NCBI GenBank assembly: GCA_023245565.1
Contig: JAHFKB010000001.1
Span: 8,737-47,955, forward strand
Direction: 5' to 3'
Source of the DNA: an archaeon
GTDB taxonomy: Archaea > Nanobdellota > Nanobdellia > SCGC-AAA011-G17 > GW2011-AR18
DNA: 39,219 nucleotides
Shown: piece after piece, positions 2,912 through 16,852 of the stretch
Layout: each line of letters opens with the position of its first letter
How positions within the stretch are numbered: the first letter of the stretch is position 1
The notes under the pieces: model-generated
What the model was told of the DNA's origin: nothing
Seen by the model: the letters and a program-made list of their open reading frames with translations, nothing else
Databases searched by the model: none
Program-made: the position numbers and the translations under genes

Positions 2912-3469
2912 ATGGCTTCGCCTCTACAAAATGCTATAACTTTCTTAAGAGATTTTGGCCTTTTTGATGTTGTGCTTCCATTCTTATTAGTATTCTCAAT
3001 TATTTTTGCAATTCTAGAAAAAACAAAAATTCTAGGAACAGAGGGCAAAGAGCAGACTCCAAAAAGAAGCTTAAATACAATGGTTGCTTTTGTAATTGGA
3101 ATGCTTGTTGTGGCAGCAAACAAAATTGTTACAGCAATTAATGAAGCACTTCCAAATATTGTATTAATAATTATTGCATTTGTAGCATTCTTAATGATGA
3201 TTGGAGTATTCTTTAAATCAGAAGAATTTGTTTTAGCTGAAAAATATAAAGGATTTACTTTAGGTTTTGTTGTAGTTTCATTAATCATACTAATTATTAT
3301 ATTATTAGATTCATTAAAATTAGATAGTAAAAAGAGCTGGTTAGAATGGCTAATGGAATATGTAGTAAATAATATAAGCGGCCCTATTGTTACATCAATA
3401 ATATTTTTGATTGTTGCAGTAGCAGCAGTTGTTTATATAACAAGAAGTAATGGTGGAGAAAAAAAGTGA
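2912..3469 (+). CDS. multi-TM membrane protein, tandem paralog 1 (pilus-locus associated)
   Basis: 185 aa; LRDFGLFDVVLPFLLVFSIIFAILEKTKILG aligns with the next ORF. Confidence 0.75.
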   Translation: MASPLQNAITFLRDFGLFDVVLPFLLVFSIIFAILEKTKILGTEGKEQTPKRSLNTMVAFVIGMLVVAANKIVTAINEALPNIVLIIIAFVAFLMMIGVFFKSEEFVLAEKYKGFTLGFVVVSLIILIIILLDSLKLDSKKSWLEWLMEYVVNNISGPIVTSIIFLIVAVAAVVYITRSNGGEKK

Positions 3470-3475
3470 TAAAAA

Positions 3476-4033
3476 ATGGTACTAGGGTCATTTAATTTAC
3501 AAGATTCATTAAATTACCTAATTGATTTAGGAGTTTATGATGTATTACTTCCATTCTTATTAGTATTTGCAATAGTTTTTGCAACACTAGAAAAAACAGC
3601 AATCTTGGGAAAAGATAAATCAAACATTAATGCAATTGTTGCAGTTGTTACAGGTTTACTTTTAGTAGTTCAAAGAGGAATTGTTGATACAATAAATATT
3701 TTCTTACCTAGAATTTCTTTACTAATTGTAGTTATATTAATGGGATTATTAGTTATTAGTATGATTGCTGGAAAAGAATTTGATGGTATAAAGGGCGGAA
3801 GTTTTGCAATAGGTGTTATAATAATTATAATTGCAGTTATATTTTCATTAGTAACTCCACAATCAGGAGGACCAATATGGTTAACTCCAGCAGATAAACA
3901 AATTTTATTATCAGTTGGAATTCTAATTTTAGTATTAGTCCTTGTTATAGGTTTAGTTACTTCAAAACCAAAACAACAGCAAGGAGATAGTTTCCTAAAA
4001 AAATTAGCTAAAGACTTTGGTGGAAAAGAGTAA
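3476..4033 (+). CDS. multi-TM membrane protein, tandem paralog 2
   Basis: LIDLGVYDVLLPFLLVFAIVFATLEKTAILG matches paralog 1. Confidence 0.75.
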   Translation: MVLGSFNLQDSLNYLIDLGVYDVLLPFLLVFAIVFATLEKTAILGKDKSNINAIVAVVTGLLLVVQRGIVDTINIFLPRISLLIVVILMGLLVISMIAGKEFDGIKGGSFAIGVIIIIIAVIFSLVTPQSGGPIWLTPADKQILLSVGILILVLVLVIGLVTSKPKQQQGDSFLKKLAKDFGGKE

Positions 4034-4585
4034 ATGGCAACAATATTAGACACAGGATTAATATCATTTTTATTACCTGTATTTGTATTTTTATTTATTT
4101 TAGTAGTTATCTATGCAATCTTAGGAAAAACAGAATTATTTGGTAAAACTCAAACAACTTTAAATTTATTAGCAGCAATTTGTGTGGCTGCAGTTTCTGT
4201 ATTTGCAGGAAATATGATTAAAGTTATTGGATCTATAATTCCTTGGATTGTATTTATTGCTTTAGTTCTTGTTTTAGTATTTGCTATATATATGGCTTTT
4301 GGAAAAAAAGAAAAAGAAATATGGGATACCTTTGGTGGACCAACAGTTATAACAGTAATTATTATTTTTATAGTTTTAATTGGTCTAATTGCAGTATTTG
4401 AATCAGATATAACTCCTTTCTCTGGAACTTCTCAAGTAAGCTCAGATGGAAAAATAGTTCAAGGCCAAAATGTAAAAAATGAAGTTATAGCAACACTAAC
4501 TCATCCAAGATTATTAGGAGCTTTATTTCTTTTAATGGTAACTGTATTTACAGCTAAATTATTAGTAGATAAATTAGAACCATAA
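4034..4585 (+). CDS. multi-TM membrane protein, divergent tandem paralog 3
   Basis: FLLPVFVFLFILVVIYAILGKTELFGK resembles the N-terminal motif of paralogs 1 and 2; starts directly after the upstream stop. Confidence 0.7.
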   Translation: MATILDTGLISFLLPVFVFLFILVVIYAILGKTELFGKTQTTLNLLAAICVAAVSVFAGNMIKVIGSIIPWIVFIALVLVLVFAIYMAFGKKEKEIWDTFGGPTVITVIIIFIVLIGLIAVFESDITPFSGTSQVSSDGKIVQGQNVKNEVIATLTHPRLLGALFLLMVTVFTAKLLVDKLEP

Positions 4586-4616: not shown

Positions 4617-5645
4617 ATGAATATAAAAGATAAGTATTTAGATTTTCAAAGAAAACGTAAAATTAAACAATTAAAATCTGCAATAAAAGATTATCAAAAT
4701 TTAGTATTTGGATCAATTCCAGCTACCAAAGCTAGAAATAATTTAATAGAAGAATTAAAACCTGCTTTAGATATAATAAATAAATTTGAATATTTTGGAT
4801 ATATTTCTATAGAAGATTATGAATACTTAAAAAAATATTTAAAAATAGATTCTAACTTAAATGATGAAAATGAAATTATTATTTTTGGAGGGATTCTCAA
4901 AACAGATTTACAAGCAATTATAATTATTCTTAGTAAAATTCAACAATTAGCTAAAGAATTAAGTTTATCAATAAATTCAGTTAAAATAGAGTTATCAAAA
5001 ACAGAATTATCAAAATTATCAAAAGAATTCTATATAATTCCAAAAGAATATATTATTAGTCACACAACTCAAAGTTACAGAGATTTCTTAAAACAAGCAA
5101 ATTATATGGATCTAGATTCAGCAGATGGTTTATTAGTAGAAAAGAAAATAAGTAAAACAAAAATAAATTGGTCTGATTCTAAAAATTTAATAGAAAAAGA
5201 AGGTTATAAATTATTAACAGCAGGTCTAATCTACTTAGTTTTTATTCCTTATCTAAAAGAAAAAGAATCTCAAGGAGAAAAAGGAGTAATAGAAACATTA
5301 AATGAAATGATGAGTAAATATGCAGAATGGTTAGAAGATAAAATAATAAATAAAAACACATTAAAAATAAATAATAAAGAAATAGAAATAAATTTAATAC
5401 AACAAGATGGACGGTTTGACAAAGAAGATATAAATGAATATGGTTATCCTGAAAAATTAAAAGAAAAAGGAGAATATTATTATTGGTATCCAAGAAATAA
5501 TGAAATTGCTACCATTCGTGACTGGAACTCCGTGTTGGGCTTGAGTCTTATGGGGGGGCCTTCCTTTGTTGGCGGTTGGCTTGGGGTACGTCGTACAAAA
5601 ATTTTCAATTTTAAAAAAGAAATATTCCAAGGACCATTTAGATAA
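4617..5645 (+). CDS. putative DGR variable protein 1 (unique N-terminus, shared CLec-like C-terminal cassette)
   Basis: Shares EFYIIPKEYIIS..QxYRDFLKQANYMDLDSADGLLVEKK and YYWYPR..NE..RD...LGL...G.P.FV...LG.RR.KIF with ORF 12558-13616; GC-rich, A-poor C-terminal stretch. Confidence 0.75.
   Translation: MNIKDKYLDFQRKRKIKQLKSAIKDYQNLVFGSIPATKARNNLIEELKPALDIINKFEYFGYISIEDYEYLKKYLKIDSNLNDENEIIIFGGILKTDLQAIIIILSKIQQLAKELSLSINSVKIELSKTELSKLSKEFYIIPKEYIISHTTQSYRDFLKQANYMDLDSADGLLVEKKISKTKINWSDSKNLIEKEGYKLLTAGLIYLVFIPYLKEKESQGEKGVIETLNEMMSKYAEWLEDKIINKNTLKINNKEIEINLIQQDGRFDKEDINEYGYPEKLKEKGEYYYWYPRNNEIATIRDWNSVLGLSLMGGPSFVGGWLGVRRTKIFNFKKEIFQGPFR
5505..5597 (+). other. putative DGR variable region (VR1)
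   Basis: 31-codon segment: 9 A in the first 90 nt and about 56% GC, in strong contrast with flanks; 31/93 nt differ from 13506-13598 while the adjacent frame stays conserved. Confidence 0.7.
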
Positions 5646-5648
5646 ATT

Positions 5649-6194
5649 TCAATGTTTTATTTTTTTAAGTTCTTGAGTTACTCTATTAAGATCTTTAATA
5701 TTAGAAGTTAAAGGTTCTAAAATTTTTTCAAAGACTTTTTCTAAAGCTTTCATCTCAGTATGAACTCCTTTAATTCCTTCATCATAATCTTTTACTTTAC
5801 CAAGAACAGCACCTTGTAATTGTTCAAATCTTTCTTCTAATCTAAGTAATTCTTGTTTTATAGAAATAACATCATTATTCATTTTTTCTTTCCAAACAGC
5901 AATATTACCAATTCCACCCACAACATCCTGCCATTTTTCATTAATTATTGCTTCAATAATTTCATGTATTCTATCAATATCAATTTGTGGACTAGCATTT
6001 GAAGATTGTTGTGGATTATAATTTTGTTGAGAATAACCTTGGCTAGGTTCAGAACTATCTGCATAATTTGTAGTAGGTAAATCTCCTTCATCATTAGGAA
6101 TCTCAGACTGTACTCCACTAGAAGGAGCAGGAACATCACCAACCATTCCATCAACACCTGCTTTTATATCATTAAAATCTCTTTCATCTGGCAT
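5649..6194 (-). CDS. coiled-coil protein, possibly archaellum/pilus accessory
   Basis: 181 aa; low-complexity N-terminus and predicted coiled coil; adjacent to a second coiled-coil ORF and the ATPase. Confidence 0.6.
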   Translation of the reverse strand: MPDERDFNDIKAGVDGMVGDVPAPSSGVQSEIPNDEGDLPTTNYADSSEPSQGYSQQNYNPQQSSNASPQIDIDRIHEIIEAIINEKWQDVVGGIGNIAVWKEKMNNDVISIKQELLRLEERFEQLQGAVLGKVKDYDEGIKGVHTEMKALEKVFEKILEPLTSNIKDLNRVTQELKKIKH

Positions 6195-7403: not shown

Positions 7404-9695
7404 ATGGTATTATTTAAAAAAAAGGTAAAGCCTGGAGAACATGAAGTTGTAAAAGAAGGTCCAGAAGAAGTTATCCATATAAATTATGAATCTTATCCAA
7501 GAATTCCATCAATTGAAGATGATGCAATAGTAATGTCCTCAGTTATAGAAAAATTATCACAAGCATCTTCAGTTTCTAGAATTATTTTTCATCAAAAGAA
7601 AAAATATGAATATAATTACAATCAAACACAATTATTAGCAGAAGTTGCACAAATATATAATCATTTCATAAAACAAAAAAATATTTTAACACAGGCAGCT
7701 CTAGAAGTTTTTGGTCCTATTCCAGATTCAGCTTCAAGAATAAGAAACTTGCAAAATGTAGTTCTAAATTTATTAAGAACAGATCCAATAGGTGCATTTG
7801 TAGAAACTAAAAGATTGTTAAGAGAAGAAAAAATAACTTTGTCTAAAAATCCACCGCAAGAATATGTTTCATTATTGCAACCTTATTTAACAGTATTAAC
7901 TGAGATTTATACTTTACTTGCAGGAACAAAATTAGTTCAAGCTGCAAAAGATAATTTAGAAGGTTATTCAATTGGAACAAGAGAAGTATACAAGAAATTA
8001 TTCCACCCAGTAATAACCCCAGATTTTATGTACACTAGATTATTAGCAACTCCTCCTTTAGATGCAGAACTTATAGATTCTTATTCATTAGGTAAAAATA
8101 CACATGTACAATTATTTAATACAAAAGAAACTATAAAACCATTATATCATATAACTCCTCCAGAATTTCAAATATCTGAAGATAAATATGAATTATTAGA
8201 ATTAGCAAGAAAAGTTTTAGCAGAACATCAGCCAAAAGCAGAAGAATTTATTGATCCAGAGAAAATGAGAGAGACTTTTTTTAATATTGGTAGAGACTTA
8301 ATAACAGAACTTGCAGAAAATAAAAGAATTTCTCTAAATTATCATGAAATAGAAGAGCTAGCACAAATTTTAGTAAGATACACTGTTGGTTTTGGTTTAA
8401 TTGAAAATTTATTACAAGATGAAGAGGTACAAGACATAGCAATAAATAGTCCTCCAGGCACAACCCCAATATTTCTAGTTCATGGAAAATATGATGAATG
8501 TGTTACAAATATTATTCCATCAGTTGAAGATGTAGAAAGTTGGGCATCTAAGTTTAGATTAATTTCTGCTCGTCCATTAGATGAAGCAAATCCAGTTTTA
8601 GATACAGAATTAATTCTTCCAACTTCAAGAGCAAGAGTTGCAATAATTTCTAGACCATTAAATCCAACAGGTTTAGGTTTCTCAATTAGAAGACATAGAG
8701 ATAAACCCTGGACATTGCCATTATTTATTAAAAATAGAATGATAAATGATTTAGCAGCAGGCTTGTTAAGTTTTATTATTGATGGAAATAGATCTTTATT
8801 AGTAGCAGGAACTAGAGGTTCTGGTAAAACAGCAGTCTTAGGTTCTGTCTTAGTAGAAATTATGAGAAAATATAGAGTTATTTCAATCGAAGATGTTTTA
8901 GAATTACCAACTGATGCTCTAAGAGAATTAGGTTATAATATTCAAACAATGAAAGTTAGATCTGCTTTATTAAAATCTGGTTCTGAATTAGCAGCTGATG
9001 AAGGAATAAGAACTTCTTTACGTATGGGTGATTCATCTTTAATTATTGGAGAAGTTAGAAGTACCGAAGCTTTTGCACTTTACGAAGCAATGAGAGTTGG
9101 CGCAATGGCAAACACAGTAGCAGGAACAATTCATGGAGATTCTCCTTATGGAGTTTATGATAGAGTAGTTAATGATCTTCAAGTTCCAAAAACAAGTTTT
9201 AAAGCAACAGACTTAATCATAGTTGCTAATCCAGTAAGATCAGCAGATGGTTTGCATAGATTTAGAAGAATAACTCAAATTACAGAAGTAAGAAAAGATT
9301 GGGAAAATGATCCTCTAACAGAAGGAGGATTTGTTGATCTAATGAGATATGATTCTAAATTAGATACTTTAGTTCCAACAGATGAACTAATTAATGGAGA
9401 TTCTGAAATTATAAAAAGTATAGCATCAAATATAAAAGAATGGGCTGGTAATTGGAATTCTTTATGGGAAAATATTTTATTAAGAGCAAAAATAAAAAAA
9501 ACAATGGTTGAATATTCACAAAAATATAAAATTCCAGATTTATTAGAAGCAAAATCAGTTATACAAATGAATGATGAATTCCATAGAGTATGTGATAGAA
9601 TAAGTCAAAGTTTAGGAAAATTAGATTCAGAAAAAATATTTTTTGAATGGGAAGAAATTCTAAAAAAATATATTAAAATAAATTATAAAATATAA
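7404..9695 (+). CDS. type II/IV secretion system ATPase (FlaI/GspE/VirB11 superfamily)
   Basis: Walker A AGTRGSGKTAVL; IEDVLELP; SLIIGEVRSTEAFALYEAMRVGAMANTVAGTIHGDSP; RRITQITEV. Confidence 0.92.
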   Translation: MVLFKKKVKPGEHEVVKEGPEEVIHINYESYPRIPSIEDDAIVMSSVIEKLSQASSVSRIIFHQKKKYEYNYNQTQLLAEVAQIYNHFIKQKNILTQAALEVFGPIPDSASRIRNLQNVVLNLLRTDPIGAFVETKRLLREEKITLSKNPPQEYVSLLQPYLTVLTEIYTLLAGTKLVQAAKDNLEGYSIGTREVYKKLFHPVITPDFMYTRLLATPPLDAELIDSYSLGKNTHVQLFNTKETIKPLYHITPPEFQISEDKYELLELARKVLAEHQPKAEEFIDPEKMRETFFNIGRDLITELAENKRISLNYHEIEELAQILVRYTVGFGLIENLLQDEEVQDIAINSPPGTTPIFLVHGKYDECVTNIIPSVEDVESWASKFRLISARPLDEANPVLDTELILPTSRARVAIISRPLNPTGLGFSIRRHRDKPWTLPLFIKNRMINDLAAGLLSFIIDGNRSLLVAGTRGSGKTAVLGSVLVEIMRKYRVISIEDVLELPTDALRELGYNIQTMKVRSALLKSGSELAADEGIRTSLRMGDSSLIIGEVRSTEAFALYEAMRVGAMANTVAGTIHGDSPYGVYDRVVNDLQVPKTSFKATDLIIVANPVRSADGLHRFRRITQITEVRKDWENDPLTEGGFVDLMRYDSKLDTLVPTDELINGDSEIIKSIASNIKEWAGNWNSLWENILLRAKIKKTMVEYSQKYKIPDLLEAKSVIQMNDEFHRVCDRISQSLGKLDSEKIFFEWEEILKKYIKINYKI

Positions 9696-10405: not shown

Positions 10406-12580
10406 ATGTCAGAAGATATTAAAGAAATTTTAAATAAATATAGGAATAAAATAGAAGAGCATGTAAATGAAGAAACAGAAGGCCAAGTTGAACCTCAAGA
10501 CATAAATGATTTCTCAAAAGAATATGTAAAATTTAGAGAAGAAGTATTATCAAGCAACATATCAAGATATGAAAAATATTGTAATGTTGCAGATAAATTA
10601 ATAAAATTTAAACCCCCAGAAAAAACTTTACCAAAAATCCAAGAAGCAATTGATGTTACTCACCTAAATATTACTCCTTCAGGTGCAGCAAGCTTAGCAG
10701 CACTAGCAGCATTATTTACTTTACTTGGTGGAGTTATAATTTCTATTTTAATATTTTTACTTTCAGGTGGATTTCCAATATTTACATTTTTAATGTTTTT
10801 AATAATCAGTCTAGTAGTTTTAACTTATCTTAATAGAATGCCAATTTTCTTAGCAACAAAATGGAGACTTAAAGCAAGCAACCAAATGGTTCTAGCAATA
10901 CTATATATTGTAATTTATATGAGACATACTTCTAATTTAGAACATGCAATTAAATTTGCAGCACAGCATACAGATGCACCATTATCTTTAGATCTAAGAA
11001 AAATATTTTGGGATATTGAAACTAGAAAATTTTCAACAATAAAAGAATCTCTAGACAATTATCTAGAATCTTGGAGACATTATAATTTAGAATTTGTAAC
11101 AGCAATTCATTTAATAGAATCTTCTTTATATGAACCAACAGAATCTAGAAGAAATGATCTTTTAGATAAATCATTAAGTGTAATTCTAGATGGAACTTAT
11201 GAAAAAATGTTACATTATGCACAAGACATTAAAGGCCCAGTAACAACTTTACATATGTTAGGAGTTATTCTTCCAATTTTAGGTTTAGTAATATTTCCAT
11301 TAGTGGGTTCATTTTTACAAGGATTAGTTAAATGGTATCATCTAGCTTTCCTTTACAACATAATTCTTCCAGTGATGGTATTTTTCTTAGGAATGAATAT
11401 TTTATCAAAAAGACCAACAGGTTATGGTGAATCTAAAATTGCAGAAAGAGTTTATCAAAAAGCATTTGATCCAAAATTTTTATGTATATTTATAGCTTTA
11501 TTATTAATTGTAGTTGGATTATTTCCTCTTTTTGTAAATGCAATAACACCTGCAAAATTTATTCCAAATCAAAAATGTGCTATAGGAGATATAGATTTAG
11601 GTAATTTATTTGGTTGTTTTTTCGGATATATTCAAGTTGGTGAAGATATTTATGGCCCATTTGGTTTAGGTGCTTTAATTCTAAGTTTCTTAATACCTGC
11701 AGGATTAGCTATTGGTCTTGGTACTTATTATAAAATGAAAAGTAAGAAAATTATTGAATTAAGAAATGAAACAAAAGAATTAGAAAGTGAATTTGCATCT
11801 GCATTATTTCAAGTAGGAAATAGAATTGGTGATGGAATTCCAACAGAATTATCTTTTAATAAAGTAGCTGAAACAATGGAAGGAACACCATCTGGAAAAT
11901 TCTTTAGATTAGTAGATCAAAACATAAGATCACTTGGAATGAGTATTCAAGAAGCAATATTTAATGAAAAAAATGGAGCAATATTATCTTATCCTTCTCC
12001 TCTAATTGAAAGTTCAATGGAAGTATTATTAGAAAGTTCAAGAAAAGGTCCAAAAATAGTTTCTCAATCATTAATTAGTATTTCAACATATGTAGATAAA
12101 ATTCACAAAGTATCAGAACGTCTTAAAGATCTATTAGCAGAAGTTATTTCTTCAATGAAATCTCAAATTTCATTTTTAACACCAGCAATTGCAGGAATAG
12201 TTGTAGGAATTTCTTCAATGATTGTTAATATTATTGTAGCTTTAAATTTAAAAATAAGCAGTTTTAGTTTAGAAGCAGGATCAGATTCAGGAAGTGCAGC
12301 TAGCTTAACAACAATAGTTGATTTATTTCAAGTTAATGGAATAATTCCAGGATATTTTTTCCAAATAGTTGTAGGAGTTTATGTAGTACAGTTAGCTTAT
12401 ATTTTAACAATAATGCAGAATGGAATAGAAAATGGTTCTGATAAAATTAATGAACAGCACTTGCTTGGAAAAAACTTAATAAGAAGTTTTCTTTTATATG
12501 CAGTAATCGCAATAATTGTAACAATATTATTTAGTTCAATGGCACAAGGATTATTAAGTGCACAAGATATTACTGGCTAA
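10406..12580 (+). CDS. type II secretion system F / TadC/FlaJ-type platform membrane protein
   Basis: 724 aa with multiple TMs and two T2SSF-like halves (RHTSNLEHAIKFAAQ..., ASALFQVGNRIGDGIPTELSFNKVAE...), directly downstream of the ATPase. Confidence 0.85.
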   Translation: MSEDIKEILNKYRNKIEEHVNEETEGQVEPQDINDFSKEYVKFREEVLSSNISRYEKYCNVADKLIKFKPPEKTLPKIQEAIDVTHLNITPSGAASLAALAALFTLLGGVIISILIFLLSGGFPIFTFLMFLIISLVVLTYLNRMPIFLATKWRLKASNQMVLAILYIVIYMRHTSNLEHAIKFAAQHTDAPLSLDLRKIFWDIETRKFSTIKESLDNYLESWRHYNLEFVTAIHLIESSLYEPTESRRNDLLDKSLSVILDGTYEKMLHYAQDIKGPVTTLHMLGVILPILGLVIFPLVGSFLQGLVKWYHLAFLYNIILPVMVFFLGMNILSKRPTGYGESKIAERVYQKAFDPKFLCIFIALLLIVVGLFPLFVNAITPAKFIPNQKCAIGDIDLGNLFGCFFGYIQVGEDIYGPFGLGALILSFLIPAGLAIGLGTYYKMKSKKIIELRNETKELESEFASALFQVGNRIGDGIPTELSFNKVAETMEGTPSGKFFRLVDQNIRSLGMSIQEAIFNEKNGAILSYPSPLIESSMEVLLESSRKGPKIVSQSLISISTYVDKIHKVSERLKDLLAEVISSMKSQISFLTPAIAGIVVGISSMIVNIIVALNLKISSFSLEAGSDSGSAASLTTIVDLFQVNGIIPGYFFQIVVGVYVVQLAYILTIMQNGIENGSDKINEQHLLGKNLIRSFLLYAVIAIIVTILFSSMAQGLLSAQDITG

Positions 12581-12581
12581 A

Positions 12582-13616
12582 ATGGAAGAAAAAGATACTA
12601 AGAAAATTGCAGTGGTTTTAATTAATGATTTTTTAAATAAATTAATTAAGAATTTAAAAAGTAAAGGGCCTCAATACTACTATGAAATAAAAGAAATAAA
12701 GTCAGATATAAGAAATACTTTTGGATACGAAATTAGATTAAAATACAGAATTGGTATGACTTGGGAGAAAAAATATTTTTTAAAAATTTACATATATTTT
12801 TCAGGAGAAACTAAAATAAGTTATAGGAATTATGATATAGAATATAATTCAGCAAAAATATTTAGACATATTTTAGCACCACATTTTTTAGATGATGAAA
12901 TAAGCACTAAAATTAATTTAGCAATAGAAAAATTAAAAAATGATATATCTAAAGAATTAAATATTATTGAAAAAAATATATTAACAGAGGAATTCTTACC
13001 AACAAGAGAAGAAATAGAAAAAGAATTCTATATAATTCCAAAAGAATATATTATTAGTAACACAACACAAAATTATAGAGATTTCTTAAAACAAGCAAAT
13101 TATATGGATTTAGATTCAGCTGATGGTTTATTAGTAGAAAAGAAAATATTTAAAACAACTATAAATCAAACAGATGGAAAAAAACTAGTAGAAAATCAAG
13201 GATATAAATTATTAACAGTTGGTCTAATGTATTTAGTTTTTATTCCTTGGTTAAAAGAACAAGAATTAAAAGAAAATAAAGATGCAAAAGAAACATTAGA
13301 AGAAATGAAAACTAAAAATGCAGAATGGTTAGAAGATCAAATAATAAATAAAAATACATTAAAAATAAACAATAAAGAAATAAAATTAAAATATTTACAA
13401 TTACAAGATGGATCTTTTGATAAAGAAGATATAAATGTATATGGTTATCCAACTAAAATAAAAGATTCAGGAGAACATTATTATTGGTATCCAAGAGATA
13501 ATGAAGCAGCCGCCTTCCGTGACGGGAGCTCTGAGTTGGGCTTGATTTTGAACGGGGAGCCTGGTTTTGTGTATGATGTGCTTGGGTTGCGTCGCGCAAA
13601 AATTTTCCAAAATTAA
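12582..13616 (+). CDS. putative DGR variable protein 2
   Basis: Track ORF begins at GTG 12558; ATG at 12582 just after the upstream stop is the likelier start. C-terminal cassette shared with 4617-5645. Confidence 0.75.
   Translation: MEEKDTKKIAVVLINDFLNKLIKNLKSKGPQYYYEIKEIKSDIRNTFGYEIRLKYRIGMTWEKKYFLKIYIYFSGETKISYRNYDIEYNSAKIFRHILAPHFLDDEISTKINLAIEKLKNDISKELNIIEKNILTEEFLPTREEIEKEFYIIPKEYIISNTTQNYRDFLKQANYMDLDSADGLLVEKKIFKTTINQTDGKKLVENQGYKLLTVGLMYLVFIPWLKEQELKENKDAKETLEEMKTKNAEWLEDQIINKNTLKINNKEIKLKYLQLQDGSFDKEDINVYGYPTKIKDSGEHYYWYPRDNEAAAFRDGSSELGLILNGEPGFVYDVLGLRRAKIFQN
13506..13598 (+). other. putative DGR variable region (VR2)
   Basis: 10 A in the first 90 nt and about 58% GC; aligns without gaps to VR1 with 31/93 differences on an invariant G/C/T skeleton. 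Confidence 0.7.
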
Positions 13617-15840: not shown

Positions 15841-16395
15841 ATGGCTAATAATAGAGACGATATAATACTAGAAATAGTACTTTTATTATTAAAAGAAAAG
15901 ATCCATTTAAGGAGTATAGCAAGAAAATTAGAAATCCACCATTCAATAATAGCAAGAAAATTAAAAGAATTAATTAATGAAAACGTTGTAGATTATAATC
16001 TTGAAGGAAAAAACAAAGTCTTCTACATAAAAAATAATATTCAGGCAAAAAACTATGTTTATAATGCTGAAAGATATAAACTAATAAAACTATGCAGAAA
16101 ATATCCAGAATTAACTATAATAATAGAAGATATATTAAAAATATCCAGAGAAAAAATGATAATACTATTTGGAAGTTATGCTAAATTTTCACCAAAAAAA
16201 GAAAGTGATATAGATCTATATATAGAAACAAAAAATAGCAAAGTAAAAGAAGAAATAAACAGTATAAACTCAAAAATAAAAGTAAAGATTGGAATTTTTA
16301 ATATTAATGATTTATTAATAACAGAAATAATTAAAAATCATATAATATTAAGAGGTGTTGAAGAGTTTTATGAAAAAAACAAATTTTTTAAATAA
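15841..16395 (+). CDS. HTH + MNT-type nucleotidyltransferase
   Basis: LRSIARKLEIHHSIIARKLKELI HTH; LFGSYAKFSPKKESDIDLYIE nucleotidyltransferase motif (GS...DxD). Confidence 0.8.
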   Translation: MANNRDDIILEIVLLLLKEKIHLRSIARKLEIHHSIIARKLKELINENVVDYNLEGKNKVFYIKNNIQAKNYVYNAERYKLIKLCRKYPELTIIIEDILKISREKMIILFGSYAKFSPKKESDIDLYIETKNSKVKEEINSINSKIKVKIGIFNINDLLITEIIKNHIILRGVEEFYEKNKFFK

Positions 16396-16852
16396 ATTAA
16401 AAGAAGAAGGAAATCTAAGTCTAGTGGAGCAATCAGAAACAATATGTATATCATACATATTAAAATCAGATAATTCACTAAAATCAGCAAAAATATTACT
16501 AGAAAACAAACTTTATGATGATTCAACATCAAGCTCATATTATGCAATGTACAATATATTAACAGCATTGCTATTTAAAACAGGAATAAAATGTGAAAAC
16601 CACGCAGGATCAATACTTTTGCTAAAATTTTTATTAAATAAAGTAGAACTATTTGATTTAATATCAAAAGCAAAAGAAGATAGAATAGATAAACAATATT
16701 ATGTAACATCAGAAGATATAACATTAACAGAAGAATCAACCAAAAAAATATTAATTAAAGCAGAAGAATTCACAGTAAAAATGAAATTAGTAATAAAAAA
16801 TATGAAAAATGAAGAAATAATAAATTTAAGAGAAAAATTTCAAGATATATGA
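16370..16852 (+). CDS. HEPN domain protein
   Basis: SYYAMYNILTALLFKTGIKCENHAGSILLLK HEPN pattern; overlaps the MNT gene. The track start (GTG 16355) is less likely than ATG 16370. Confidence 0.75.
   Translation: MKKTNFLNKLKEEGNLSLVEQSETICISYILKSDNSLKSAKILLENKLYDDSTSSSYYAMYNILTALLFKTGIKCENHAGSILLLKFLLNKVELFDLISKAKEDRIDKQYYVTSEDITLTEESTKKILIKAEEFTVKMKLVIKNMKNEEIINLREKFQDI

Follow-up and report, generated by a model that had tools for sequence, protein, structure and literature searches.

The window analysed here is a stretch of 39,219 nucleotides that forms part of contig C46 in a draft archaeal genome (G000; 896 kb, 54 contigs, 88% complete). Two homologous genes within it, which we refer to as target genes 1 and 2, have adenine-poor, GC-rich segments close to their 3' ends (VR1 and VR2), and both lie within a type IV pilus-like gene cluster. 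The features, in window coordinates, are as follows:

2912..4585, + strand: a trio of conserved membrane-protein genes that precede target gene 1, with their order kept in relatives
4617..5645, + strand: target gene 1, an open frame of 342 aa with an N-terminal part, a conserved target domain and the VR near the C-terminus
5391..5509, + strand: 119 nt shared without mismatch with the VR3-carrying paralogue and reaching the variable core (111 nt followed by the 8 nt of GAAATTGC)
5504..5597, + strand: VR1, A-poor and GC-rich, with an aligned core at 5508-5595
5580..5597, + strand: IMH-like end of VR1, with TGGGGT at 5582-5587; the VR of G001:C17 has the same end
7404..9695, + strand: T2SSE-type secretion/pilus ATPase (PF00437, E 2.8e-14)
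10406..12580, + strand: TadC/FlaJ-like membrane protein, present in 8/9 genus and family genomes searched
12558..13616, + strand: target gene 2, for which an ATG at 12582, just past the TadC stop, is a likelier start than the listed GTG
13506..13598, + strand: VR2, with an aligned core at 13509-13596 and an IMH-like end at 13581-13597

The cluster is conserved in the family, and includes the membrane proteins at 2912-4585, the T2SSE ATPase, the TadC-like protein and small secreted-type proteins; the TadC/FlaJ-like name is given from the position beside the ATPase together with topology, with no Pfam match over the cut-off. A nucleotidyltransferase-HEPN pair (Polbeta/NTP_transf_2 and HEPN) at 15841-16852, also within the cluster, is likely to be a toxin-antitoxin module. 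In relatives the pilus ATPase gene is split near residue 551 by about 1.4-1.5 kb (L106 6100-7607 in G001, L108 and L110), probably by an intein; the copy in the window has no interruption.

Target gene 2 starts right behind the TadC stop, and in the congeners G001 and G002 the TadC gene is followed directly by sequence resembling that located 3' of target gene 2 in G000. At the target gene 1 site just 18 nt separate the flanking-gene alignments in G007, and the gene is absent from G001 too, where each flanking gene also lacks its end. Since the target genes are present in one genome and absent from several relatives, they were more probably added in this lineage than lost repeatedly. DGR parts are associated with the cluster in a second case as well: in another relative, G004, a DGR RT and its template lie immediately 5' of the TadC gene, where the contig ends.

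A sequence-only reading had flagged positions 5505-5597 as an A-poor, GC-rich putative DGR variable region at the C-terminal end of ORF 4617-5645. The coordinates, the reading frame and the C-terminal place are correct, as is the resumption of AT-rich sequence at caaaaattttc, and the composition is borne out, with 9 A and 56.8% GC in the 88-nt core (5508-5595) compared with about 49% A in target gene 1 upstream of the core and 25% GC in the whole window. Both VRs are near the 3' end of their genes, with the ORF ending 50 nt past the core of VR1 and 20 nt past that of VR2. When both strands of the 39 kb were scanned for stretches with no more than 10 A and 48 or more G+C per 88 nt, exactly two passed, 5504-5597 and 13506-13598, both on the + strand; the second, near the 3' end of ORF 12558-13616, a homologue of target gene 1, had gone unmentioned in the earlier reading. 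Beyond the window, the scan covered just parts of the genome.

The conserved domain of target 1 spans about residues 136-332. By inspection, targets 1 and 2 have no evident signal peptide or membrane helix, and searches with the two proteins gave no Pfam match, no significant NCBIfam or PHROG match, and no match by sequence to PDB chains. A C-type lectin-like context had been proposed, with modelling of the C-terminus as a check; the AlphaFold2 models, built from four sequences, which is too few, reached a pLDDT of just 42 for the full protein and 50 for the domain, and Foldseek searches with these weak models gave no credible match. The diversified C-terminus may bind a ligand.

Variation among the paralogous gene ends

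Further copies are present elsewhere in the same genome:

C6:6332-6468, - strand: VR3, homologous copy
C15:18240-18383: VR4, homologous copy
C6:27425-27565, - strand: VR5, distant copy

VR3 and VR4 are located outside the pilus-like cluster, and no RT adjoins any of the VR1-4 genes. The paralogues of target gene 1 are 53-60% identical in alignment, the four frames are all open, and VR2 and VR3 end in TGGGTT rather than TGGGGT. Matches to the target proteins were found in 8 of 99 related genomes searched, with G000 itself counted, and a search of the named genome collection gave relatives of these proteins only in the Woesearchaeota MAG JACPNI01. The uncultured archaeon of the window is, on this basis, probably a member of Woesearchaeota.

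Contig C15 has, 3 nt upstream of the VR4 gene, another gene (L054 5020-5712) whose end is A-poor and GC-rich (stretch 5558-5671) but of a second type. Its protein is unrelated to the VR1-4 targets and resembles the AvpA-like target of G001:C14; alignment of this second-type VR with the G001:C14 TR was no better than with shuffles. This gene is probably a fifth DGR target, with two target families side by side, and the draft genome thus has at least four dispersed rewritable gene ends and probably five.

The VR1 and VR3 genes are identical at 119/119 nt before the core and at 26/29 nt after it, and differ at 32/88 bases inside it (core versus 111 upstream nt, Fisher p 1e-13). Differences restricted to the core between otherwise identical flanks imply that the two genes diversified later than the copying or conversion event which they last shared. 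When the four cores are aligned, the 48 invariant columns comprise 20 G, 12 C and 16 T, with A absent, and A is present in 21 of the 40 variable columns. All nine A residues of VR1 fall in variable columns, which has a probability of 5e-4 by chance, a value that serves as a guide only since the rows are related. This concentration of paralogue variation in the patch, together with the lack of any invariant A, supports the earlier assignment of VR1 as a DGR variable region. Judged indirectly, by comparing paralogue with paralogue, variation appears confined to the VR and to sites that template A would explain.

The variable columns are themselves of two kinds. Of the 19 without A, 11 split VR1 and VR4 from VR2 and VR3, whereas only 3/21 of those containing A do so (p 0.007). 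The cores may therefore represent two template lineages, VR1 with VR4 and VR2 with VR3, and we read the pattern as two template versions, distinguished at sites other than A, to which A mutagenesis would then have added further changes, although a single template changing over time would look alike. The same pairwise sharing of blocks is tract-like, as might be expected if no retroelement were involved and the patch were a foreign GC-rich segment or a product of gene conversion among paralogues. However, conversion or import would leave A in invariant columns and no private changes at the A-containing columns, and the proven VRs of congeners match in composition, gene position and end sequence; we consider this explanation very improbable. 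DGR-type adenine mutagenesis as the origin of VR1 is a well-supported interpretation.

We also looked for a hairpin downstream of VR1, and the fold of the VR1 end with its downstream sequence was no better than those of shuffles (z 0.64). A hairpin past the VR is not obligatory in every DGR.

Reverse transcriptases and templates in congeners and in the draft genome

Complete DGRs are present in both congeners. RT, TR and VR are together in G001:C17, where 14 TR-to-VR changes are at template A and 0 elsewhere over 50 nt, and the RT has the motifs LGNLTSQ and YVDD; similar DGRs are found in G001:C14 and G002:C26. The IMH-like ends are CTTGGGGTACGTCGCGCAAAAAT for the G001:C17 VR, CTTGGGGTACGTCGTACAAAAAT for VR1 and CTTGGGAATATCCC for the G001 template. 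The end of VR1 is nearly identical to that of the proven congener VR, which lends further support to the DGR reading, and nanoarchaeal DGRs are described with TGGGGT in the IMH and TGGAAT in the IMH* (PMC4372165). The scan of these loci for TR-VR pairs also gave many chance matches in A-rich DNA, which were disregarded.

Two further properties of the relatives' DGRs were observed. Each of the DGR RTs of G001:C14 (L062 3624-5368) and G002:C10 (L038) is divided between two reading frames, the second of which continues into a long C-terminal extension, winged-helix or HTH-like in appearance. In addition, in four template repeats about 17-24 nt are inserted behind CTCG, in the form CTCG-AAAT-...-CGAG, in which CTCG and CGAG are complementary:

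L044 (G001:C17), about 4780-4890, - strand: TR with CTCG insert
L045 (G002:C26), 365-476: TR with CTCG insert
L046 (G004:C14), about 5180-5320, - strand: TR with CTCG insert
L105 (G080:C24), about 4100-4270, - strand: TR with CTCG insert

The insert is missing from the VR in all three cases in which the VR is known, and there is none in the templates of G001:C14, G080:C14 and viral L120; RNA folds of three insert-containing templates were no better than shuffles.

The sequence-only reading had called for a DGR RT and a matching template in the genome, and in this 88%-complete assembly we found neither. PF00078 detects one RT only, on contig C18, which is retron-like by motifs and matches, and thus no DGR RT in the assembly, with the congeners scoring positive; a G001 DGR RT used as query (E<=10) matched both congeners and nothing in G000. 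Template searches of G000 were likewise negative with blastn of VR2, with an N-masked pattern of the four cores run over 103 genomes of the order, with a shorter core-middle pattern, and with the 306-nt leader and TR of G001, for which the congeners matched as control. A congener IMH* pattern also matched the congeners and not G000, but it is too narrow and would miss the G001:C14 type.

As the sole RT of the assembly, the C18 enzyme could be supposed to diversify VR1-4. It has PQG and WLDD instead of the LGNLTSQ and YVDD of congener DGR RTs, its best matches are retron RTs, and C18-like RTs are present in G001 and G002 besides their DGR RTs, such that we regard this as the least probable of the explanations. 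The retron-like RT (L001 1174-2133 in G000:C18, with L040 and L041) is common to G000 and both congeners.

A different possibility is that RT and TR have been lost from the lineage, and that VR1-4 are fossils, leftovers that no longer change. This agrees with an assembly that has no RT or TR of this type, and with the state of one locus in particular: the C17 DGR of G001, with its RT, TR and VR, is located between ribonucleotide reductase and thioredoxin genes, and contig C6 of G000 is continuous across this interval with the VR5 target gene only, indicating that the DGR machine is absent from that locus. Against general loss, the four genes keep open frames, the GC content of the cores has not fallen to the 25% found around them, and the differences between VR1 and VR3 lie in the core alone, with flanks that otherwise match. 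We view fossil targets as possible but somewhat doubtful. The thioredoxin gene adjoining VR5 (L015 683-1435, - strand, G000:C6) has an intein-like insert exactly at the active site (WAEWC...HN-CGPC); the G001 thioredoxin has none.

Contigs of relatives end at a VR or beside a TR (L045 1-80 in G002:C26, and L046 in G004:C14). Such breaks are expected if hypervariable repeats defeat assembly, and this could explain the missing machine of G000; on balance, we favour placing the RT and TR in the unassembled 12% of the genome. Alternatively, a virus or plasmid of this archaeon could supply the machine in trans from outside the chromosome. DGR RTs that are up to 59% identical to those of congeners are indeed encoded on IMG/VR contigs, one of which, L120, contains a TR and a VR that differ only at A and has an IMH end of similar sequence. 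In a pattern search, however, no viral contig had a template matching VR1-4, the viral contigs lack any relative of the target protein, and the congener DGRs look chromosomal, making an outside source unnecessary; we consider an external machine unlikely.

Interpretation and relation to known systems

We conclude, with a probability of about 0.9, that VR1 is the variable repeat of a DGR target gene whose template is encoded outside the assembly. A template RNA would be reverse-transcribed with errors at adenines, and the cDNA would replace the 3' end of the target gene as far as the GC-rich IMH end CTTGGGGTACGTCG; the template, in two versions, would act in trans on the dispersed targets VR1-4. 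We infer the template itself and its two versions from the cores, and both the trans action and a recent diversification of the targets are suggested in the same way. The best reading is that these are remote, dispersed DGR targets whose machine lies in the unassembled part of the genome, has been lost or is external. More tentatively, the target family may have spread to new loci, including a surface-filament cluster, and been diversified in trans from two templates, with the ancestral DGR locus left without RT and template.

This small archaeal genome is a clear case in which several DGR targets are remote, and its sister species provide complete DGRs to set beside them. Two questions can be tested with it: whether archaeal DGRs work in trans, and whether hypervariable proteins are acquired by DPANN pilus-like clusters.

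RT-less DGRs and remote targets are already known from nanoarchaea, cyanobacteria and Thiohalocapsa (PMC4372165, PMC7517822, PMC10907252). The archaeal DGRs of DUSEL4 Nanoarchaeota include partial ones that consist of a target gene and VR only, for which fossil and remote explanations were already named by the authors (Paul et al. 2015, PMC4372165). Our targets resemble these in the VR position near the C-terminus, in the TGGGGT of the IMH and in that a genome has several targets, but the DUSEL4 genomes with partial DGRs also contained complete ones (PMC4372165), of which we found none in G000; moreover, targets 1 and 2 are in a pilus-like cluster, and the downstream GRA-loop hairpin is not seen here. 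AvpA, the variable protein of an archaeal DGR, adopts a C-type lectin fold and has reported relatives in Woesearchaeota (PMC5006420). It shares with our targets a short VR of about 27 residues followed by a conserved last segment, although its motifs are not visible in targets 1 and 2; the AvpA motifs GAKVVVYAH and HPQTIPFLG are found instead in the G001:C14 target. The closest parallels to the dispersed arrangement are the remote variable proteins of cyanobacteria (PMC7517822) and the trans-diversified targets of Thiohalocapsa PB-PSB1 (PMC10907252), in which VR-bearing paralogues are likewise distant from RT and TR. Trans action was inferred there from the TR match at non-A sites, and those genomes contain the matching TR (PMC7517822, PMC10907252), whereas in the present assembly no TR was found and two template versions are deduced from the VRs.
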